Source: an uncultured Bacteroidales bacterium
GTDB lineage: Bacteria; Bacteroidota; Bacteroidia; Bacteroidales; P3
DNA length: 63,051 nucleotides
NCBI GenBank assembly: GCA_905236645.1
Contig: CAJOMZ010000001.1
Span: forward strand, 1-63,051
Direction: 5' to 3'
Part shown: positions 31,822 to 48,600 of the stretch, piece after piece
How positions within the stretch are numbered: the first letter of the stretch is position 1
How the letters are laid out: each line of letters starts with the position of its first letter
Notes under the pieces: generated by a model
The model's input: only the letters and a program-made list of their open reading frames with translations
What the model was told of the DNA's origin: nothing
Databases searched by the model: none
Position numbers and translations under genes: made by a program

Positions 31822-31960
31822 CCAAAATCGGTGAAATTGCAAAATTCCTCCCCGAATGCCCCGAACAAGGGGTAACCAACTGAATTTCCGTCAATAACAC
31901 ACTTTTCCAAAAGAGTTCAATCTCCTTGGGAAAGCCCCGTTTTTGCCCTGTTGCAACACG

Positions 31961-32050
31961 CTGATTTCCATATACCAAATTCCTATCAAATTCTACCCAA
32001 ATTCTTACCAAAGTTTAGTCAAAGTTCAGTTTGGTAGAATTTGATAAAAA
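31961..32050 (+). repeat. Dispersed intergenic repeat, copy B
   Basis: CTGATTTCCATATACCAAATTCCTATCAAATTCTACCCAAATTCTTACCAAAGTTTAGTCAAAGTTCAG…; aligns with copies A and C. Confidence 0.9.
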
Positions 32051-32187
32051 TTTAGCAAAAAGTCGGATGGAATTTGAATCAATGCAGCCCCGATGCAAGA
32101 CCGTGGCGAAAGGGGCGGCAAAGGCTCGTCGGCTGACGCAAATATTATTTTTTTTATTATAAAACCCAGTCTATCAAAAGAAAATAT

Positions 32188-32195
32188 TATATTTG
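32188..32195 (+). promoter_or_regulatory. -7 motif TATATTTG
   Basis: Matches TAnnTTTG, about 65 nt upstream of 32258. Confidence 0.5.
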
Positions 32196-32257
32196 CAGTG
32201 TAAAACAAAGCCGGGGAATTCATCCAAACACCTCGCCCTTAACACGATGCATCAATT

Positions 32258-33715
32258 ATGAAATCGAAAACACTTCTTTTCTCAATCCTGTTTTTTGCGT
32301 GGTATGCAATCGGGCATACGCAGGGCACTCCTACAAGCGTGACCGCAACGCTATTCTCACCCAATAGTTTTCAGCACGCAAAAATCAAGGAATATCATTA
32401 TCCTACAACAATCTGCTGCTACATATACGACACTGTTGAGGATCAATACACCTCAGCATTTTCGTATCAGAACGACACAATAATGAAGTCAAAAATCATT
32501 TTTCTAAGCGGATACATTGTAAATGATTTTGCAATTGCCAACGACAGTGTCTTTTTCTGCGGATACGACATTAACCAAAGAGGAATTATTGGTTTTTTCA
32601 GCATTCACGACCTTTTTTACAACGACGGAAACTTTTATATCCAGAACAACTTCATTGCTCGTGACGAGGATTATAACTATTATGATGTTGAACGGTTTAC
32701 CAAGCTTGTGACACTTACAAACAACAACAACGAGCGCCATATTGTATGTATCGGATACACGACAGCAAGTACAGTCTTTCGAATGGCTTGTATGGTTGAT
32801 TTTCACACCAGCAGTTTGCCCTTTCCTGACGCCACACGTCCCATTTCTCCCTGGTCATACGAGTCTGGTTTACTATTTAAAAGGATGCCACATTATCTGC
32901 TTGACATAGCGATTGTTGGAGATTATATAATAACCGCAGGCTTTAACGAATACGACAAGATAAGCCTGCGCAAACACAACGTTCAAAACGTCTTTGGGCT
33001 GTCTGGGCCACAAAACCAGACTCTCACCTTTGACATCTTTGCCCCAAGTTATACAGGGCCAAAGAAATGGAACAACGACGAATTACTACTGACCGCGTAT
33101 ACCGGTGACACATTTGCCATAGCTGCAACGTGGATCGATAACAATGGATTAAAACCCAGACGGGCAATTAACATTTCGGAATACAGGATCAACCCTTTAA
33201 ATGGTACGTTTTCGACATCAACTCTGGTATTCAAGACACTAAACATCCTTGGCTTCCCAAACGAAGTATCATTGAAAGGATTCTGCGGCAACAGATGGAC
33301 ACGGAAACTTGCATTGCTTTTTGAGGGAAGATCCACAAACGACTCTATTCGTAGTATCTTTTTAGAAACGACACGACTGCTGACATTGCCACGAGCCAAC
33401 CTAAACAAATACACTTACTTTAATGAAAGTTTAGATGCCGGGCTCGGGGGCATTGACTTATTTAACAACCACAGCCAATATGTTATGGCCGGGAGACACG
33501 AACACCCCACATCAATTCACACTTTTAGGGTCGAAACGTCTGGCGTGAATTCATTGTGCCAGCCTCTCGTAAACTGCGCTTTCACCACCTTGCCTAATAT
33601 ATCGGCAAGCTATTCTACAAAAACATTTACTATAATGGGCGGCATTGGCAACGTCCAATCCATTCCACGACTAAACAGATTGTACTATGACATTAACATT
33701 GACTGTGAAGAATAA
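32258..33715 (+). CDS. Exported protein of unknown function
   Basis: 485 aa with signal peptide MKSKTLLFSILFFAWYAIGHTQG; no recognised domain. Confidence 0.75.
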   Translation: MKSKTLLFSILFFAWYAIGHTQGTPTSVTATLFSPNSFQHAKIKEYHYPTTICCYIYDTVEDQYTSAFSYQNDTIMKSKIIFLSGYIVNDFAIANDSVFFCGYDINQRGIIGFFSIHDLFYNDGNFYIQNNFIARDEDYNYYDVERFTKLVTLTNNNNERHIVCIGYTTASTVFRMACMVDFHTSSLPFPDATRPISPWSYESGLLFKRMPHYLLDIAIVGDYIITAGFNEYDKISLRKHNVQNVFGLSGPQNQTLTFDIFAPSYTGPKKWNNDELLLTAYTGDTFAIAATWIDNNGLKPRRAINISEYRINPLNGTFSTSTLVFKTLNILGFPNEVSLKGFCGNRWTRKLALLFEGRSTNDSIRSIFLETTRLLTLPRANLNKYTYFNESLDAGLGGIDLFNNHSQYVMAGRHEHPTSIHTFRVETSGVNSLCQPLVNCAFTTLPNISASYSTKTFTIMGGIGNVQSIPRLNRLYYDINIDCEE

Positions 33716-33735
33716 AACAAGAGGAGGACATCACT

Positions 33736-35190
33736 ATGAAAAAAACATTATTATTCATATCATTATTCCTGACAATGTCGACAGCATCGATGGCGCAAGT
33801 AGACACCATTGATATTGGTGAGCGAGTGCCAAACTATTATTATTGGGACACCAATTGGTGGGATTACTACTATTTCAATTATTCTTCCAATTATCCATAT
33901 TATTACAATGGACCTTTAGACTACGACACAATTAGTTTTTATGATTCACACAAGAATCCTAATTGCAAGTTGGAAGAAGCACGCTATTTCTTTACCGAAA
34001 AAGACTTGCGAATAATTGGGGTTGCTGGTATGACAAATATATCCATCGATCGTCCGTCAGACACCCTGCTTTATCCAGAGTATTATAGAATTTACAAGCC
34101 CGGAAGCAAAGAAAATAATGACACAATGATCCTGATTGCCGAAGCAAGATGGGACACTTCACGCATAAGCTACTTTATGATTAGCGAATCGTGGTATGAC
34201 TATTACGAAACAAAGAGATCGTATTATCCAATACACGAGGCATACTTTGACACCCCTATTGTGATACACGACAGCTTCTATGTTTCCTGTACGCACAATA
34301 ACAGTTTTTACTATCCCGAAGATGATTCCGTAGAAGTGTATGTTTCTATTTTCGATACCATAATAAAGATTCTGCGTAAACACGACAACGAACCGAGATG
34401 CGGGCAAATATCCACCGTTGCAGACGAATACGACGTCGATTTTATTCACCCAAACCCTCCAAGGGTAAAATATCGTGCACATTATCTAAACCCAATCACA
34501 GTTCCTTGCTATATAGCGTATGTCGATGACGGATGTTATAGTGACACTAATTGGCACACAAAAAACAATAGAAGAGGTTTTACGAACATCTTTCCTATAT
34601 TCGACACTTGCACTCATTGTAATCCAGGCAACGATACCTGCATAACGCCAAGCGATTTGCGGGCATCGGTGTCGCAATACGATACAGGTTCGACTACGCT
34701 GACGTGGGGATACATTGACAGAGCCATAAACTACGAAGTGTCTCTATGCAAAGACAGCTGCCAGCCCGACAACGGCACCATCCTGCAGTCGGCCACATCG
34801 TTCCTGAACATTGAAAATCTCGACACGGCACAATGGTATACCGTATGGGTTCGCAGTGTCTGCGACGACGACAAGACAAGCCCTTGGAGCAACAGCGTCC
34901 GCTTCTATATACCCGGCAAAGCATCGCAGGGTACAGAGGGCATCCAAAGCACCCTTGACCGGTTTACAATCCTTATGCCCAACCCCACAAGCGACATTGT
35001 AACCGTACTATCCTCGTTCACAATTCTTTCGGTAGACATATTCACCCTCAACGGTCAATCAGCGGCCCATCAGAGCAAAGTCAACGCAATAACCACTACC
35101 CTGCCGCTCGACAACCTACCCAAAGGCACCTACATAGTCCGCATCGTCACTCCACGCGGCACATCTCACAAGAGGCTTGTTATCAACTGA
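33736..35190 (+). CDS. Secreted protein with Fn3 domain and T9SS type A sorting domain
   Basis: 484 aa; signal peptide; Fn3 segment; C-terminus ILMPNPTSDIVTVLSS…VDIFTLNGQ…LPKGTYIVRIVTPRGTSHKRLVIN. Confidence 0.87.
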   Translation: MKKTLLFISLFLTMSTASMAQVDTIDIGERVPNYYYWDTNWWDYYYFNYSSNYPYYYNGPLDYDTISFYDSHKNPNCKLEEARYFFTEKDLRIIGVAGMTNISIDRPSDTLLYPEYYRIYKPGSKENNDTMILIAEARWDTSRISYFMISESWYDYYETKRSYYPIHEAYFDTPIVIHDSFYVSCTHNNSFYYPEDDSVEVYVSIFDTIIKILRKHDNEPRCGQISTVADEYDVDFIHPNPPRVKYRAHYLNPITVPCYIAYVDDGCYSDTNWHTKNNRRGFTNIFPIFDTCTHCNPGNDTCITPSDLRASVSQYDTGSTTLTWGYIDRAINYEVSLCKDSCQPDNGTILQSATSFLNIENLDTAQWYTVWVRSVCDDDKTSPWSNSVRFYIPGKASQGTEGIQSTLDRFTILMPNPTSDIVTVLSSFTILSVDIFTLNGQSAAHQSKVNAITTTLPLDNLPKGTYIVRIVTPRGTSHKRLVIN

Positions 35191-35348
35191 TTGACACCTA
35201 CCCAACAGGACATCTGCTAAAAAAAGATAACTTTTTCTTCGCTATTTTCATATTATTTCTTAATTTCGTTGTTTAAAACGGCAGTGCCTTTTTAAGCAAA
35301 AGATATGCTTATCAATCTGTTACAGCCAAACAAGAAAACAGAAACAAT

Positions 35349-37465: not shown

Positions 37466-37520
37466 TGCATCACTCTAATTAAACCAACACACTTCCTGTA
37501 CATTTTTAAAAAATAAAGAC

Positions 37521-37548
37521 ATTTTTTATTTTTGACAAAATAAAAAAT
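37521..37548. promoter_or_regulatory. Perfect 12-bp AT-only inverted repeat overlapping a -7 motif
   Basis: attttttatttt-tgac-aaaataaaaaat; contains TATTTTTG at 37527-37534. Confidence 0.6.
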
Positions 37549-37601
37549 TAAGTAATACGTTTATTAGTCACAAGCCAATTAGTCATAAACTTATTACTTA
37601 A
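37548..37601. promoter_or_regulatory. Second dyad TTAAGTAATA…TATTACTTAA enclosing two ATTAGTCA-YAA direct repeats
   Basis: Perfect 10-bp arms immediately upstream of the start at 37607. Confidence 0.5.
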
Positions 37602-37606
37602 ATAAT

Positions 37607-38728
37607 ATGAGCACTCTCTTTGTTTTCGGTAAAACCGTGAGCGGCGATGCTTTTACCGACCGAGAAAAAGACACAGCCAAGCTTGTGTCCAACTTTCAAT
37701 ATGGAGTAAATACATTCCTACTTTCTCCACGGCGATGGGGAAAGACATCACTGGTAAAAAAAGCAAAAGCCATTGCTGAGAATACAAAATTAAAGATAGT
37801 GTATGTCGACGTGCATCTCTGCCGCAGTCGCGAGGATTTTTGCGAACGTTATGCTTCGGCCATACTTACCCAGACTTCCAACAAAATGGAAGAATGGATT
37901 GACAATGCAAAAACATTTTTGAACCGTTTCAGTTTCGGAGTGAATGCTTCGGCCGACCCATCGACAGAAATGACATTCAAAATGCAACTGACTCCACGCG
38001 AACAATCACTGGAAGACCTAATACAGCTTCCGGAAAGGATTGCGAAACGTAAAAAAATACACGTGGTGGTTTGCATCGACGAGTTCCAACAGATAGGTCT
38101 CTTTCCAAACAGCGTCCAATTCCAGACAGAGCTTCGGTCTATATGGCAACATCACGAGATGACATCCTACTGTCTATTCGGCAGCAAGAAACATATGATG
38201 GAATCGTTTTTCGACGACAGCAGCAAGCCATTCTACAAGTTTGGCGACATCATATATCTACAGCGAATCCCCACCGAATATTGGGTAAAATACATCACCG
38301 GCAAATTCCGTCGCGAAGGGAAAAGCATCAGCGAGAAGCAGGCTCGCTGGATTGTCGACCACGTCGAGAGCAACTCGTCCTATGTCCAACAACTATCGTG
38401 GTACGTCTTTCAACGCACAGTGAAAAAAGTGGACGAAAACATCCTTTCCGATGCATTGACAGAACTCGTGGAACAGTGCGCCGATGTTTTTGAGGCCAAA
38501 ACAGAAAACCTGACAGCAAATCAAATAAACTTCCTGCGCTGCATAGCCGACGGAATTCACACAGGAATATCCTCTGCAAAAGTCATCGCAGCATACAATC
38601 TTGGATCGTCGCCTATTGTAGCCCAGCTGAAGAAGTCCCTTGTCGAGAAAGATTTGATTTCCATTGAGAAAAAAGAAGTCCATCTGTCAGACCCCGTGAT
38701 GGGAATCTGGCTGAAACGACAATTATAA
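37607..38728 (+). CDS. Archaeal-type AAA ATPase (STAND/ORC-like), possible member of the adjacent defence-like cassette
   Basis: 373 aa; Walker A LLSPRRWGKTSLVKKA, Walker B VVVCIDEFQQIG, C-terminal winged-helix-like region ending DPVMGIWLKRQL. Confidence 0.88.
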   Translation: MSTLFVFGKTVSGDAFTDREKDTAKLVSNFQYGVNTFLLSPRRWGKTSLVKKAKAIAENTKLKIVYVDVHLCRSREDFCERYASAILTQTSNKMEEWIDNAKTFLNRFSFGVNASADPSTEMTFKMQLTPREQSLEDLIQLPERIAKRKKIHVVVCIDEFQQIGLFPNSVQFQTELRSIWQHHEMTSYCLFGSKKHMMESFFDDSSKPFYKFGDIIYLQRIPTEYWVKYITGKFRREGKSISEKQARWIVDHVESNSSYVQQLSWYVFQRTVKKVDENILSDALTELVEQCADVFEAKTENLTANQINFLRCIADGIHTGISSAKVIAAYNLGSSPIVAQLKKSLVEKDLISIEKKEVHLSDPVMGIWLKRQL

Positions 38729-38750
38729 GACTACACCATATACGTCAACT

Positions 38751-38809
38751 ACCGTGCACTAAGAGCTCGCCACGGCCGACTAGTCGGCATCAACGAGACC
38801 GCGTACGGT
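38751..38809. other. Nested inverted repeats between AAA ATPase and SIR2/TIR genes
   Basis: Central 14-bp palindrome GCCGACTAGTCGGC (38775-38788), flanked by ctcg/cgag and accgt/acggt complementary pairs. Confidence 0.45.
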
Positions 38810-38849
38810 GAAAAGCAATTAAAAACGCAAAACAACAACATTTCCAAAT

Positions 38850-40289
38850 ATGTCACAGGATTACATCAACAATATCGTCCTTCAGATTTTTAGGGACAAC
38901 TGTGTCACCGTGATAGGCAGCGGAGCCATTCTGAAGACCGACAAGGCAAACAACGGCACAGGCGACTCACACATTATGCTGCTAAAACAATACGCCGCTA
39001 AGAGGAACAGGGGCACCAACAACGAAATTGATGAGATAATAACAGAGAACGATTTCTGGAACTTCTTTCACGAAAATGAAATAGTTTGGAACTCTAAAAA
39101 AGCCATAGAATGCAACGCTGAATTAAACGAGCATTCTTCATCTTTGCTCTGGGCAGACGGACTGATAGATCTGCTGAAATCTCTGAGAATTGTCTTCACA
39201 ACAAGCACCGACTGCCTGCTGGAAAAAGCATACCAAGAGGCCGTCGGAGAAGAAGAGATAATACAGTTCAATCTACTCAAAGAGGACACCAGCGAATTCG
39301 TAGGCTTCCTCGAAAAAAATATAAAAAAGGGGAGAAACTGTCCACGTGCCATAGTTTACTTGTTTGGCAAGATCGACGAGCACCAACCATTTGCTTATTC
39401 AGAGCCCACATATGTCGAAGCCATTTCAAAGTTCTACGCCAAAATCAATGGCGGAGACAAGACTTTGGACAACTTTTTCAAGTTTGACGGCACAAAGGAA
39501 CGCCGGAAACTGCTTATGATTGGATGCGATTTCGACGACTGGCGGTTTCGATTCCTCTGGTATGCTATTGCAGCAAACATCAATCTGCAAAACGACAACA
39601 ACAAGCGAGGTACCGTAGCCTTTACAGGAATGAGCAAAACCCTGCAGGACGAGGTTAGTGAGACTGCATTCATTGAGGATGGCACAAGTCAGTTCCTTAG
39701 CAAATTAGGGAAAAGCCTGAATGACGAAAAAGTAAAAGAATGGATTGCTCAGGACTTCAGGGCCAATGGGAAAGGCGTTTTTGTATCATACAAGCACGAG
39801 GATGCTGATGCAGTACGGACATTTGTAATTACATTACGCGAAAGGGGCTACAGGGTATGGTTCGACGAATCAGAACTGTACCCTGGAGATGTGTATGACG
39901 ATGTGATAAGAGACAACATTGCCCAGTGCGGCAGCATAATAATAGCACTGACAGAACACGTCACCAGAGACCTGAAAAGACTCAGAGACCTAACGAAAGA
40001 TATTCCCAATGACAAACTGGACGAAAAGCTCGAAGAATTATATAAATTAAACAATGGAACCGCTCCATATTACATTGTGAGGGAATGGCGGCGTGCACTC
40101 AAAAGGAAAGAGCCTAACATCATACCCCTGTCTTTTGAAGGCTACGACCATACAGTTTCAGACAATCACATTTCATTCGATTCATTAATGTGTCCAATAG
40201 GAGAAATGGATGTAGAGACACACGCCAAGATTGACAAAATCAAAACACAATTAGACAAATATCTAGGCATAAACACACAAGCAAGATGA
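38850..40289 (+). CDS. SIR2-like/TIR fusion protein (putative immune effector)
   Basis: 479 aa. N-terminal SIR2-like landmarks: CVTVIGSGAIL, IVFTTSTDCLLEKAY, AIVYLFGKID, LLMIGCDFDDWRFRFLWYAI. C-terminal TIR: GKGVFVSYKHEDADAVRTFVITLRERGYRVWFDESELYPGDVYDDVIRDNIAQCGSIIIALTEH…YYIVREWRRAL. Confidence 0.85.
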   Translation: MSQDYINNIVLQIFRDNCVTVIGSGAILKTDKANNGTGDSHIMLLKQYAAKRNRGTNNEIDEIITENDFWNFFHENEIVWNSKKAIECNAELNEHSSSLLWADGLIDLLKSLRIVFTTSTDCLLEKAYQEAVGEEEIIQFNLLKEDTSEFVGFLEKNIKKGRNCPRAIVYLFGKIDEHQPFAYSEPTYVEAISKFYAKINGGDKTLDNFFKFDGTKERRKLLMIGCDFDDWRFRFLWYAIAANINLQNDNNKRGTVAFTGMSKTLQDEVSETAFIEDGTSQFLSKLGKSLNDEKVKEWIAQDFRANGKGVFVSYKHEDADAVRTFVITLRERGYRVWFDESELYPGDVYDDVIRDNIAQCGSIIIALTEHVTRDLKRLRDLTKDIPNDKLDEKLEELYKLNNGTAPYYIVREWRRALKRKEPNIIPLSFEGYDHTVSDNHISFDSLMCPIGEMDVETHAKIDKIKTQLDKYLGINTQAR

Positions 40290-43200
40290 AGCACTCAACA
40301 CAAAAAGGCAACAGCAATGAGACAAAGGCCAATCCCTGGAAAGGCTTGGTGCCATACCAAGACGGCGACAAGTGTCTGTTCTGCGGGCGCGAACGAGAAA
40401 CAGAAGAGCTGAGCGAAATAGTAAGGCAGAATACCATAGTCACACTTTACGGACGTAGCGGTGTGGGCAAGACATCGCTGCTTCAGGCAGGCATCTTTCC
40501 CATAATGAGATTCTTCGGATACAAGCCCATTCCCATACGTCTGTCAACGGAAAGGAATGCTGGCGAAAGCTTCATCAGCTGCATTATCCGGATAATGAGA
40601 GGCTTCTACAAGAGTAATTCCAAAAGTTCGAATTTGCGTGACTTCCTAGGCAGCATAGACTGCGACGACGACAACAAGCCCCTGATAATTCTCGACCAGT
40701 TTGAGGAGGTGCTGCGCGACGCGAAAGACGATGCCACCTCGCTGCTCAAAGAGTTGAGAGCCCTGCTTTCTAAAAATAGCGCCACGCACTTCCGCGTCAT
40801 AATAAGCCTGCGCGAAGACGACCTGTACAGACTGGAGGACTTGCTGGACCGCAACCACATTGACCAACTAAAGCGCACACGCTACCGCATACGCGACATC
40901 GACTTCGAAGGATGTCAGAAAATCATCAAGTATCCCGCCCAAAAAGCCGACCTGACAATTGAAGACGGAGTTGTTGAGGCCTTGATTGAAAAAATACAGA
41001 ACGACGACAGCAACAACCAAACCACCGCCGACACACGTAGCAACGAAACCAGCACGCTGTTGCTGTCGCTCTACCTCAATCGTCTTTACAACAAAACACG
41101 GCACAAAAGAGCCATCACCATTAGCGACATCAACACCCTCGGCAAAAGGCCTCTCTACAACTACTACAGCGATGCCACCAAAGGGTTGAGCCTCCACAAA
41201 AAGACAATAATAGCCAAGATGGCGCCTGGAGGATACCGCCTGCCAAAAAGCGAAAGCGAGCTGAAGGCAATACTCGGTAGCAAGTTCGACGCACTGACAA
41301 AAGGCGACAACCGAATCTTCAACATTGCTTCCGGCAGCAAGTCGAACAACGAAGAGCGCAAATGGGAGCTGGTGCACGACCGGCTGGCAAAGAACATCTA
41401 CGACACTCTGAGCGAACGAAAAGTGAAACGCAACAAGGTAATCATAATCCTCTTGGCGGCAGCATTCATAGTCGGGATTGCTGTAACATCATTGGTTCTG
41501 GGCATAAACCGCAATGCCACCAAGCCTATACCCTTCCGCACCGAGGACTACATAGGGAAGACTGTGGAATGGCAGGGACGGCCCTTCGAAATAGAAAACG
41601 GGCATCTGAAACTAACCAACTGCACCGTGGAGCCATACACCTTCATCGATGTCATCGACACCCTAACCATAGGCGACAGCGTAGTACTGAAAGGCAACGC
41701 CATCGAGACCTCGCGTCTGCGACACATCAACATCGAGGGCAAGTTCCACGGACTCTTCTTCGACCAAGGAAGCTTTGACTCGCTCAAGTCCATTAACATT
41801 GGCCCCAATGCGTCGCCCTACTACGTTGTTTCCAATATGACACCGCATTGTACCGACATTCAGTCCGTCACTATCGCCCCCGGCAACTACAGCTTCATCT
41901 ATTCCAACGGAACACTGTGGTTCAACGTCAATGGCTTGAAGCCTATCATCAGCAGGAACAAGACAGTGCTATGCGAAGACATCTACCAATCCGATTCAAA
42001 AAGATACACCCGTATAGACATTGCGCGAGATTCAGAGAAAATGCAGAACAGCCGGGATTGTAACTACATCTTCCTCACTTGCAGCGACTCCACAAAGAAT
42101 CACATCAGCGCAAAGGACATCCCTGCAGGAGCCATAGTCGGCATCGATATGCCGTGGGTTACGGAAATAGATGCCGATGTCTTCAAAGGCAATACCTTCT
42201 CTTGCCAAAAAATAAAATTGCCAAGACTTACAGAGTTAGGCGACAACAACTTCATCTGGGGTATGAACGAGCTGGATTCCATAACCTTACCCGACAGCAT
42301 CCACGTCACATCAATATATACTTTCTGTCCATTCTACTCTGGCGAGAGAAGGACTGCACGCCTGCTAAAAGGCACAATCTTTACCTACAATAACGACACT
42401 ACATCCTATTGTGCGGGCAAATATGGAATGATGAAAAAATATGTAAACACACGTACAACGACAGACCAACCCGACGACACCTGCGGATACCATTACGATG
42501 CAAATAGAAAGATTGTGTTCGACTCCGATATTGTGTCATCCTTCAACATCGGTTCTGACGAGATAGACTATGACAGCCTGACAATAATACCTCGCATAAT
42601 CCACCACAACAATAATGGATCTTACAAAATAGAGAACTACACACTGATGTACTACCGAGATAATGCCTTCCGTCCGGCATTAATACTTCGAACCGACGAG
42701 CCTGTGCTAATCCAATTCAAAGACACCCTGCACGAAAAAGCATTCGGAGCCACCAGCTACGAGCTCTATTGGCCTATTCGGTACAACATACCCAGCGGCG
42801 ACACTCTGTATGTGCCTTCCGGACAAACGGATTTCTACAAACGACTGTATGGAAACGGATACACCTTCAAAGAGCTGTCGCGCAGAAAAACCCGACGAAA
42901 CGCCAAAATGATTCGCAACAAGGCCTTGAATGAAGGCGGCAAGCTGAAGGACCGTACACTGACCATAGGCGCACACACCGAACGCGTGAGCAACGAATAC
43001 ACCGACAGCACGTTTTTCGACCGTCCCATAGTGACAGACATCGACATCGACTGGCGCAACACTTTTTTCTCCATACACGGCAACGTACTCTACCGCAACG
43101 AAAGCCCCATACGCTCAATCAACAACGGCAAGCCAGTTGTGCTCAATGGTTTGTCCTCGCTCGGGAGCAAAAAGATACACAAGGGCGAATACGTGCTGCT

Positions 43201-44812
43201 ACAAGCGGACGCACTATTCCCCGATCCAGCCCTGTCTGACTCTGCTTCTCTCTACACCTTTTATGTGCCCAAAGGCACAGCTACCGACTATCATCTGTTA
43301 GCAGAGCAGGGCTGCAGAATCGAGGAATTGTCGTCGTTACAGACATTCAGATACAGGTTGGCCGAATGGTGGAACAAACACATCCTTATTATAACAAAAG
43401 ATGGCGGTACTTGGTTCGTTCACCAAAAGAGTATTCTCGCCTGGACCATCTACATCTTCATTGTTTTGGTTTCGACAATTATATCTGGTAAGATTATTAA
43501 GAAAAAAACAGATCTCAAACGAAGCCTCCGCACGCTTGTCATCGCTTTGATGGTACTGGCGGCAGCCATTATTGCGCTGGCATTTTTCTTACTTCTGACA
43601 CAAAAACACTTTTCAGCATACATATCCACCGCCATATATCTTACTTTGTTTTTTGCCGCTGCTTCAATATGGCGCCACAAGGTCGGCGGCAAGTGGTGCC
43701 TTACACACAATGCAACAGCTCTGATGGTGGTCACTCTGATTGGCAGCCTGTGTAGCTGTTCCAACAACACCGACACCAAACCCTCGCGAATCTATCCCAA
43801 CATCAAAGGAAACAGGTTAGGATTCGTGGACGCCAAAGGCAAAACTGTTGTTCCTTACAAGTATTGTATATTTTTTAAGACCGACGCCCACGGAAATTAT
43901 ATCATAACTGACTTTGCATCTTTCACCACAGGAATAATAGACAGCACAGGAAAAACAATAGTACCCTGCCGGTTCGATTCCTTTAACAGTGCATTTGTAA
44001 AAAACAAAAACGGTACCTGTTATTCAATATTGGAGCCAAGTGCAGTAAACCGACCTTATCGTGTTTATAATTCCAGCCTTAGGATGATACTATCGCATAG
44101 TGAGCGACCTATTGCCGTCGAAAGCGAAAACGGATTGTTTTTCAGAATTGTTCAGAAAAATGATGACACCATATACTATGACACCACCGGAGCTGTCACC
44201 GCAGCCCCGGAGGGAGCCAAAGTGGTCAATTACGACATAAGAAGAATACCCCTATCTACTATCTCCCTTTGCAACCTGACCATAACACAGCAGGACGGAG
44301 CCTACGGTGTAGCGGACACCAATGGAAACACAATAATCCCTTGCATATACGACAAAATTGAAAGGATGTACATAAGCGGTACGGACATTTTCCATCTCTA
44401 CAAAGACGGCAGGCAGGGGGTTGCCGACGCACTCGGCAGGCAGGTCTATCCCCTCAAGAAAGACGTAGATATTGGGTCGTTAGGTTCCTGTTTTTGTGTT
44501 ACTCCCTACGGACATACGTACCCGGAATTCCGCACATCTCTTTACGACAGCCACGGAAAGAGGATATTGAAAAAAGTCCGCACAACTATCTTCGTACACG
44601 GCGATGGAATGAGATTCGTCCAGCGCAGAGTGCGGTTCGGGACCAGATACTACATCATCGGCAACGATGGCGATATCATCGTGGGACGCTGCCGCATAGC
44701 CTACACATACAACAGCGGCGGCGAAGAGGTTGTAGAGTTTCGCAAACACGGACGCACAGGCCGCCTGATAAAGAACAACAATGGCGAATGGGAACCCAAA
44801 TGGTACAAATAG
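40286..44812 (+). CDS. nSTAND1-type NTPase with transmembrane segments, BspA/LRR_5-like region and C-terminal WG repeats
   Basis: 1508 aa. NPWKGLVPYQDGDKCLFCGRERETEELSEI, Walker A GRSGVGKTSL, Walker B PLIILDQFEEVL, VIISLREDDLYRLEDLL. TM VIIILLAAAFIVGIAVTSLVLG, later cluster of about 4 TMs, then WG units (RLGFVDAKGKTVVPYKY…, YGVADTNGNTIIPCIYDKI…). Confidence 0.87.
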   Translation: MKHSTQKGNSNETKANPWKGLVPYQDGDKCLFCGRERETEELSEIVRQNTIVTLYGRSGVGKTSLLQAGIFPIMRFFGYKPIPIRLSTERNAGESFISCIIRIMRGFYKSNSKSSNLRDFLGSIDCDDDNKPLIILDQFEEVLRDAKDDATSLLKELRALLSKNSATHFRVIISLREDDLYRLEDLLDRNHIDQLKRTRYRIRDIDFEGCQKIIKYPAQKADLTIEDGVVEALIEKIQNDDSNNQTTADTRSNETSTLLLSLYLNRLYNKTRHKRAITISDINTLGKRPLYNYYSDATKGLSLHKKTIIAKMAPGGYRLPKSESELKAILGSKFDALTKGDNRIFNIASGSKSNNEERKWELVHDRLAKNIYDTLSERKVKRNKVIIILLAAAFIVGIAVTSLVLGINRNATKPIPFRTEDYIGKTVEWQGRPFEIENGHLKLTNCTVEPYTFIDVIDTLTIGDSVVLKGNAIETSRLRHINIEGKFHGLFFDQGSFDSLKSINIGPNASPYYVVSNMTPHCTDIQSVTIAPGNYSFIYSNGTLWFNVNGLKPIISRNKTVLCEDIYQSDSKRYTRIDIARDSEKMQNSRDCNYIFLTCSDSTKNHISAKDIPAGAIVGIDMPWVTEIDADVFKGNTFSCQKIKLPRLTELGDNNFIWGMNELDSITLPDSIHVTSIYTFCPFYSGERRTARLLKGTIFTYNNDTTSYCAGKYGMMKKYVNTRTTTDQPDDTCGYHYDANRKIVFDSDIVSSFNIGSDEIDYDSLTIIPRIIHHNNNGSYKIENYTLMYYRDNAFRPALILRTDEPVLIQFKDTLHEKAFGATSYELYWPIRYNIPSGDTLYVPSGQTDFYKRLYGNGYTFKELSRRKTRRNAKMIRNKALNEGGKLKDRTLTIGAHTERVSNEYTDSTFFDRPIVTDIDIDWRNTFFSIHGNVLYRNESPIRSINNGKPVVLNGLSSLGSKKIHKGEYVLLQADALFPDPALSDSASLYTFYVPKGTATDYHLLAEQGCRIEELSSLQTFRYRLAEWWNKHILIITKDGGTWFVHQKSILAWTIYIFIVLVSTIISGKIIKKKTDLKRSLRTLVIALMVLAAAIIALAFFLLLTQKHFSAYISTAIYLTLFFAAASIWRHKVGGKWCLTHNATALMVVTLIGSLCSCSNNTDTKPSRIYPNIKGNRLGFVDAKGKTVVPYKYCIFFKTDAHGNYIITDFASFTTGIIDSTGKTIVPCRFDSFNSAFVKNKNGTCYSILEPSAVNRPYRVYNSSLRMILSHSERPIAVESENGLFFRIVQKNDDTIYYDTTGAVTAAPEGAKVVNYDIRRIPLSTISLCNLTITQQDGAYGVADTNGNTIIPCIYDKIERMYISGTDIFHLYKDGRQGVADALGRQVYPLKKDVDIGSLGSCFCVTPYGHTYPEFRTSLYDSHGKRILKKVRTTIFVHGDGMRFVQRRVRFGTRYYIIGNDGDIIVGRCRIAYTYNSGGEEVVEFRKHGRTGRLIKNNNGEWEPKWYK

Positions 44813-44958
44813 AACAGCTACAGCAAATATGAACCCTCGCAGCATCGACTGGCAAAATGCGTCGGTGCTGCCGGTTACACACATATACACACTTTATAGC
44901 AGGATACGCCAAGCAAAATAGATTACACAATAGAATTATCTATAATGTGTAGCTATTA

Positions 44959-47407: not shown

Positions 47408-48600
47408 ATGAACGTCCTCCAGCTCTGCTACAAGCCCCCCTACCCGCCTGTCGACGGCGGGACGCTGGCAATGAACAGCGTGACGCAGGGCCTTATGGCC
47501 TGCGGCCACAAGGTGAAGGTGTTAAGCGTGTGCAGCGACAAGCACCCTGTGAAGGGCGAGGCATTGGAGGCGGGATACAAGGAGGCCACCGGCTTTGAGG
47601 CTGTCTATATCGACCTGTCGATACATCCGCTCGACGCCGCCGTGTCGCTGCTGTGCGGCGAGTCGTACAACGTCAAGCGTTTCGTCAGCAAGGAGTTTGA
47701 CGAGCGCCTGACAGCCATACTGCAAGGCGAAAGCTTTGACGTTGTGCAGGTTGAGAGCATCTTTCTTGCACCCTACGTGGCCACTGTCCGCAAGCATAGC
47801 GACGCCAAGGTGGTGCTGCGCGCCCACAATGTCGAGCACCGCATTTGGCAGCAGATAGCCACCGCAACCCACAACCCGCTGAAGCGGTGGTATTTGAAGA
47901 AACTGGCACTGGCATTGAGAGCCTACGAGTTGGAGCATATCAAGGCATTGCCTGCATTACGGCCAACGACGCAGAGACGTTCAGCAGCGAAGGCTGCCGC
48001 AAACCTCTGGCCGACATACCCTTTGGCGTTGACATAGAGCCTATAGACAATGTCGATGCCGAGCCGCAGACGCTGTTTCATATAGGCTCGATGGACTGGC
48101 GCCCCAACGAGGAGGGCATACGCTGGTTCCTGAAAGAGGTGTGGCCTCTGATACACAACGAGATGCCAGCCGTAAGGCTGTTCCTTGCCGGCCGCAAGAT
48201 GCCCGACGACCTTATGCAGATGCAGAGCGAGGGCATAGTGGTTGTCGGCGAGGTGTCCGATGCAGCCTATTTCATTGCTTCAAAGCAGATTAACATCGTG
48301 CCTCTGCTGGCCGGAAGCGGCATCAGGGTAAAGATTATCGAGGCTATGTCGCTCGGCAAGACGGTGGTGACCACCACCGTAGGCGCCGCAGGCATCGACT
48401 ACACCGACGGCAAGGACCTGCTTATTGCCGACACACCTCAACAGTTTGTGGAGCAGGTGCGTCGCTGCATCGACGAGCCCGACCTGTGCAGCAGCATAGG
48501 CGCCAACGCCCGCCGACTGGTTTTGGACAAATACAGCAACGAGGCCCTGACACAAAGACTTGTGGGGTTCTACAATAAATTGGGTGCCGCCGCGTTATAG
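47408..48600 (+). pseudogene. Glycosyltransferase (GT4-like), interrupted by a frameshift near 47942-47945
   Basis: MNVLQLCYKPPYPPVDGGTLAMNSVTQGL…ALRAYELEHIK in one frame; GIACITANDAETF…PFGVDIEPID…FHIGSMDWRPNEEGIRWFLKEVWPLI…VPLLAGSGIRVKIIEAMSLGKTVVTT in the next. Confidence 0.88.

Follow-up and report, generated by a model that had tools for sequence, protein, structure and literature searches.

A SIR2-TIR gene paired with a predicted transmembrane STAND receptor gene in Bacteroidota

Genes and conservation of the pair

The window analyzed here is the whole of contig CAJOMZ010000001.1 (63,051 nucleotides, nt), part of a 2.4-Mb assembly of an uncultured Bacteroidales bacterium (GCA_905236645.1). 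Its forward strand carries a gene for a SIR2-TIR fusion protein, a gene for a STAND NTPase, and, upstream of both, an AAA ATPase gene. A sequence-only reading of this DNA had proposed the three genes as an immune or signaling cassette. The open reading frames are intact where it placed them, at 37607-38728 (373 amino acids, aa), 38850-40289 (479 aa), and 40286-44812 (1508 aa). The SIR2-TIR and STAND genes share the 4-nt ATGA stop/start overlap that it described (40286-40289) and, judging by this arrangement, are likely translationally coupled.

The 479-aa protein is a predicted cytosolic effector. Its Pfam matches are SIR2_2 (8e-9, aa 114-251; domain core at 39189-39602) and TIR_2 (3e-14, aa 310-431). 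The TIR domain spans aa 308-433 (39771-40148), and its catalytic glutamate, E412, is encoded at 40083-40085. The 1508-aa protein matches nSTAND1 (2e-33, aa 17-286) and WG repeats (1.7e-11). Its NTPase domain, predicted to be cytosolic, covers aa 16-380 (40331-41425) and contains the Walker A motif GRSGVGKTS and the Walker B motif LIILDQFEE. It is followed by a transmembrane (TM) helix, TM1 (aa 385-403, 41438-41494), a predicted periplasmic ectodomain (aa 408-1040, 41507-43405), a TM2-TM4 bundle (aa 1044-1128, 43415-43669), a fifth hydrophobic segment, TM5 (aa 1138-1160, 43697-43765), and a WG-repeat domain (WG_beta_rep; aa 1165-1508, 43778-44809) that is predicted to be extracytoplasmic. The TIR and STAND folds on which the sequence-only reading depended were both recovered, as were SIR2_2 and WG; a Pfam LRR match, which it also expected, is absent from the window protein. 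The 373-aa protein contains an AAA_22/ATPase_2-type domain.

SIR2-TIR loci were gathered by searching the family, the order, and the phylum, together with one scan of GTDB contigs, and the resulting set holds 51 distinct, classifiable loci. A co-directional nSTAND1 gene adjoins the SIR2-TIR gene in 49 of the 51, across Bacteroidota, so the pairing is beyond chance, and the possibility that homologs of the two genes never co-occur does not apply. When the STAND protein was used as the query, each of the 11 genomes found also had a SIR2-TIR gene. The STAND gene usually lies directly downstream of the SIR2-TIR gene, at a distance of -35 to +22 nt, and in the window, as in every paired locus, the effector has a gene of its own. 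One locus (L012) has a different order, with the STAND gene upstream and two small TM genes in between. Within the window's own genus, SIR2-TIR relatives are 29-32% identical to the window protein.

The SIR2-TIR and STAND genes are a real, conserved two-gene module of gut and environmental Bacteroidota. The module is patchy, occurring in 7 of 190 family genomes and 12 of 393 order genomes, and its loci extend into other Bacteroidota classes. Two loci titled Clostridium sp. (L044) and Lachnospiraceae (L052) hold Bacteroidota-like copies, possibly on mis-binned contigs. At L081:914-2912, three tandem, near-identical genes of 218-219 aa lie upstream of a SIR2-TIR gene that has no STAND partner.

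Active-site residues of the SIR2-TIR protein

The two halves of the SIR2-TIR protein differ in the conservation of their catalytic residues. The TIR glutamate (E412 in the window) is invariant in 49 of 49 aligned proteins and, in an alignment, matches the active-site region of TIR-1/SARM1. The asparagine of the SIR2 NAD site is kept in 2 of the 49 (S119 in the window). The histidine of the SIR2 HG motif occurs in none of them, and neither does asparagine at that position, which is occupied by phenylalanine, leucine, or tyrosine (F172 in the window). In a profile alignment, the catalytic H146 of KomC falls exactly on this F/L/Y position. Avs5 is a known exception to the HG motif, as it uses NG and still requires TTNxD (PMC12931631). 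By its aligned residues, the SIR2-TIR family fails even this relaxed, Avs5-type rule.

An AlphaFold2 (AF2) model of the SIR2-TIR protein has a mean predicted local distance difference test (pLDDT) score of 77. Foldseek matched its SIR2 part to ThsA (the top match, 7uxt), Avs5 (9jap), KomC, and DSR2, and its TIR part to the SARM1 TIR domain, with a SARM1-like fold at a TMt of up to 0.69. The protein has both the TIR fold and the catalytic glutamate of a TIR NADase, and it lacks the TTNxD asparagine with HG or NG of a catalytic SIR2 defense NADase (PMC12931631). Because the SIR2 catalytic positions are lost while the TIR glutamate is invariant in the aligned proteins, the TIR domain is the predicted enzyme and effector of the pair. 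The SIR2 half is predicted to be a pseudoenzyme that may act as a scaffold or bind a ligand. An NAD+-consuming role for the SIR2 domain, which the sequence-only reading had in mind, was rejected on these active-site residues.

Topology and sensor of the STAND receptor

Pfam found the nSTAND1 domain in all 40 members scanned, with invariant G, K, and S columns in the P-loop, and the window protein has the intact Walker A and B motifs of an nSTAND1 STAND NTPase. Its five hydrophobic segments lie at aa 385-403, 1044-1062, 1084-1102, 1110-1128, and 1138-1156; the weaker ones pass at a relaxed cut-off only. A TM helix directly behind the NTPase, at about aa 385-500, is present in 42 of the 44 STANDs examined for topology, and each of these 42 has an excess of lysine and arginine on the NTPase side of TM1. 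This positive-inside pattern predicts a cytosolic NTPase. TM1 thus separates the NTPase from the sensor, and the earlier placement of the sensor regions beyond TM segments is borne out.

Past TM1, the sequences belong to families unrelated to one another. Thirty-six ectodomains fall into 13 clusters, which include WD40 (12 in the clustering; 14 of 40 members by Pfam), LRR_5, and WG. Bacteroidota O-glycosylate D-S/T-hydrophobic motifs in non-cytoplasmic proteins only (PMC12871550). This motif occurs 135 times in the 24 non-WD40 ectodomains, against 33.9 expected (z 17.9), and does not exceed chance level in the NTPase parts (z 1.4) or the SIR2-TIR parts (z -3.2). As a control, secreted and cytosolic proteins of the window give z values of 6.5 and 1.5, respectively. 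The window ectodomain holds 12 motifs, against about 2.4 expected. Because TM1, its flanking charges, and the motif enrichment past TM1 agree, the sensor should face the periplasm and the NTPase the cytosol.

The window ectodomain has relatives only in L010 and, weakly, L008. The 'LRR-like' label given to it earlier holds indirectly, through its resemblance to the L008 ectodomain (7.6e-7), whose own LRR_5 match is borderline; it has no direct Pfam match behind it. Another locus, L009, has a strong LRR_5 match. An AF2 model of the ectodomain and WG half has a mean pLDDT of 39, from an alignment of 4 sequences only.

The WG part appears to have been gained by fusion. In L010, from the same genus, the TM bundle closes the STAND protein. 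A second gene, 12 nt downstream, codes for a WG lipoprotein whose signal peptide is of the lipobox type. The fifth hydrophobic segment of the window protein aligns to this signal peptide, and the remainder aligns to the WG lipoprotein. TM5, with its lipobox-like LCSC-SNN, reads as a relic signal peptide. Since this relative encodes the WG part separately, as a lipoprotein, the window gene is, by sequence comparison, a fusion of the receptor gene with its lipoprotein neighbor. The same alignment suggests that the WG domain is extracytoplasmic and that lipoprotein and receptor are functionally linked. An assembly error was rejected, as the frame is open through the STAND/WG junction with the relic signal peptide in frame, and the three frames around the junction hold no broken split copy.

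A more conventional arrangement would make the TM helix a mere anchor, with the C-terminal repeats folding on the cytosolic side and sensing there, as in Avs. WD40 repeats are usually cytosolic, and the WD40 ectodomains are weakly enriched in the O-glycosylation motif (z 2.4), which makes their periplasmic location less certain. Cytosolic sensing nevertheless appears unlikely, given the positive-inside flanks in 42 of 42 proteins, the motif enrichment of the non-WD40 ectodomains, and the separate WG lipoprotein of L010. In one pair that lacks TM1, a second TIR domain in the middle of the STAND protein takes its place (L067:11010-14474).

Neighbors, known systems, and proposed function

The module is mobile. 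In the window it lies in a 7.49-kb accessory insertion (37466-44958, strand not assigned) between birA and a lipoprotein gene, which form a convergent pair. The site is empty in the relative G028 (locus L124), where frr, birA, 28 bp, and the lipoprotein gene are contiguous. The insertion has a guanine-cytosine (GC) content of 46%, against 51% for the window. The AAA gene is inside the same insertion, on the same strand and 121 bp upstream of the SIR2-TIR gene, and this position is what speaks for a three-gene cassette with the ATPase as a required partner. The 48 related loci hold no AAA homolog, 20 of 41 genomes have relatives of its family, and G083, which lacks the pair, has a copy that is 82% identical. 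A required third component is thus very improbable, and by these comparisons the AAA ATPase belongs to an independent, common family and is a passenger of the insertion. Of the proposed immune cassette, the SIR2-TIR/STAND signaling pair is retained, the AAA gene is not, and defense is the role that the pair may serve.

RyR-domain genes recur near the module: 16 of 44 loci have one within 9 kb, and 8 loci have one in the same gene chain. Related genomes have a RyR gene anywhere in only 8 of 31 cases, one each. Phage RyR-domain proteins bind or cleave cyclic ADP-ribose (cADPR) isomers (PMC13232231). These observations, and a lone RyR gene elsewhere in the window's own genome, on a different contig, are compatible with a signal relay, in which TIR would make a cyclic ADPR-type messenger for a separate effector, such as a TM-RyR or other TM protein, and NAD+ depletion would be secondary. 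RyR neighbors are missing from about two thirds of the loci, among them the window, and the messenger could be read by the SIR2-TIR protein's own SIR2-like domain. The relay is therefore a tentative alternative, and a strict three-part system with RyR was rejected because RyR is recurrent yet confined to a minority of loci.

Several further genes were recorded alongside these. The lone RyR gene encodes 94 aa (L129:3545-3829, G000 contig C158). TM proteins with a C-terminal RyR domain are encoded right before the STAND gene at L012:14293-16413 and L013:2589-4751, the latter with a 4-nt overlap. Macro-TIR fusion genes lie beside the module at L011:9162-10253 and L046:8533-9612. A recurrent two-TM family of 600-730 aa, with its TM helices at the N terminus and without a Pfam match, lies beside it in 13 loci (L043:7843-9975, L054:13439-15271, L058:6192-8354, and ten others). 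Elsewhere in the window, a second insertion relative to G028 (31822-35348, GC 43%) lies next to pyrH and encodes a pair of secreted proteins, of which one has a Por_Secre_tail. A frameshift near 47940-47975 splits the glycosyltransferase gene at 47408-48600; its G028 ortholog (L124:8912-10114) is one intact 400-aa gene.

PADLOC gave no full-length system match for either gene, and NCBIfam gave no system match for the pair. The fusion protein has partial TIR-domain matches in PADLOC of up to 2.6e-9, and the best STAND match is 0.012. ThsB models match the TIR part weakly, and ThcB4 scores 16 bits against a cut-off of 220. The terms 'SIR2-TIR' and 'TIR-SIR2' are absent from the open-licence literature searched, although an earlier description elsewhere is possible. 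The module is apparently undescribed, and the sequence-only reading was right that an effector in trans is not the layout of Thoeris, Avs, or DSR; no named system accounts for it.

The pair is built from known parts (nSTAND1, TIR, and the SIR2 fold) yet falls outside the definitions of Avs, TIR-NLR, Thoeris, and DSR. TIR-NLR, or TIR-STAND, proteins share the STAND NTPase, the TIR NADase effector, and C-terminal repeats, but there TIR, STAND, and TPR sensor form one polypeptide with no stated TM segment (Rousset et al. 2022, PMC9122126). In the window pair, TIR acts in trans from a protein that it shares with a degenerate SIR2, and a TM helix precedes the sensor. AVAST type 5 (Avs5) likewise links a SIR2-like domain with a STAND NTPase, but its SIR2 is catalytic (TTNxD with HG or NG) and fused to the STAND (PMC12931631). 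In the present pair both SIR2 catalytic positions are lost, TIR is the predicted enzyme, and the receptor is predicted to be transmembrane. Avs and TIR-NLR proteins carry an effector fused N-terminally to the STAND and a cytosolic C-terminal sensor; among the present loci, L067 is the only one with a TIR in cis, and the predicted topology places the sensor outside the cytosol.

Thoeris also combines TIR and SIR2-like folds, but as a separate ThsB TIR and a ThsA with SLOG or a macro or TM domain. The present module joins TIR to a degenerate SIR2 in one protein, lacks SLOG, and has a STAND receptor as its obligate partner. DSR is a single large protein with an active N-terminal SIR2 and a C-terminal sensor of phage proteins, whereas this protein has 479 aa, a degenerate SIR2, and TIR where DSR has its sensor. 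The diversity-generating retroelement (DGR) STAND/NACHT conflict loci of Thiohalocapsa share proposed periplasm-facing, hypervariable, STAND-linked antigen sensors (PMC10907252). They differ in their retroelement-diversified CLec domains, do not have a described SIR2-TIR partner, and come from one genome plus relatives. Another membrane system of two genes, EACC1 with a caspase (Kaur et al. 2020), also differs. Animal Toll-like receptors are reminiscent in their extracytoplasmic repeat sensor, single TM helix, and cytosolic TIR output, although here a STAND NTPase stands between TM and TIR, and TIR is on another protein and predicted to be enzymatic. This likeness is one of functional analogy, and no homology of the whole is claimed.

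The favored reading, held with somewhat more confidence than doubt, is that the pair is a signaling module of a transmembrane NLR-like receptor and a TIR NADase in trans, most likely serving immunity against phages or intruders. In this reading, the STAND protein would be an inner-membrane receptor with a cytosolic nSTAND1 NTPase, one TM helix, and a fast-changing periplasmic sensor, which in the window may be an LRR-like/TM/WG composite. Possible cues are phage components for adsorption or injection, a toxin delivered by contact, and damage to the envelope. Upon sensing, the NTPase would bind ATP and oligomerize under the membrane, recruiting and clustering SIR2-TIR through the SIR2-like domain as a scaffold or nucleotide-binding pseudoenzyme. 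The clustered TIR domains would then cleave or cyclize NAD+, leading to dormancy or growth arrest, death, or an ADPR-type signal.

Several points weigh against this reading. TIR domains are not always NADases, and the functional role of the pair is read from sequence. Two SIR2-TIR loci (L080 and L081, near-identical copies from one genus) have no STAND gene, two STANDs lack TM1 (L067, with its TIR in cis, and L152), and the WD40 ectodomains give the weak signal noted above. Pairwise identities of the NTPase parts correlate with those of the SIR2 or TIR domains (r about 0.85, against at most 0.39 in 2000 shuffles), which speaks for the pair, but shared descent contributes and would also produce such a correlation. 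The window copy sits among housekeeping genes, outside any recognized defense island and with no other recognized defense gene beside it, so the proximity to defense genes that had been looked for was not found. Phage records hold no homologs of the pair, plasmids one distant match, and viral contigs none confirmed, and a phage- or plasmid-borne origin was rejected accordingly.

The same module could instead answer to a non-phage trigger, such as envelope stress, antagonism by a contact-delivered toxin, or kin recognition, with TIR causing dormancy or altruistic death. A highly diverse sensor predicted to be extracytoplasmic suits this account, as do the lack of phage-borne copies and the carriers, most of which, by their record titles, stem from dense communities of the gut and rumen. 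Most TIR/STAND pairs whose function is known act against phages, however, and the neighboring TIR, Macro-TIR, and RyR genes are typical of NAD-based conflict loci. A non-phage trigger is possible and the less probable account. Phage defense would be the likeliest purpose, with antagonism and envelope stress as live rivals.

A broader proposal, for which belief and doubt are evenly balanced, is a family of transmembrane NLR-type receptors in which swappable ectodomains sense extracytoplasmic cues and signal to a TIR NADase in trans whose SIR2 has turned scaffold, a prokaryotic counterpart of cell-surface pattern recognition. Known STAND/NLR defense proteins detect viral proteins inside the cell. 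If the proposal is true, bacteria would in addition use NLR-type receptors to monitor the envelope, with the constant half, the NTPase and its TIR partner, in the cytosol and a variable half that appears to be periplasmic. The module is compact, with two genes, and a relative with an empty site exists. It would offer a clean case of a defense sirtuin turned pseudoenzyme and an example of a sensor acquired through fusion with a neighboring lipoprotein gene, and cells carrying it could react at adsorption, at DNA injection, or upon attack by a neighbor.

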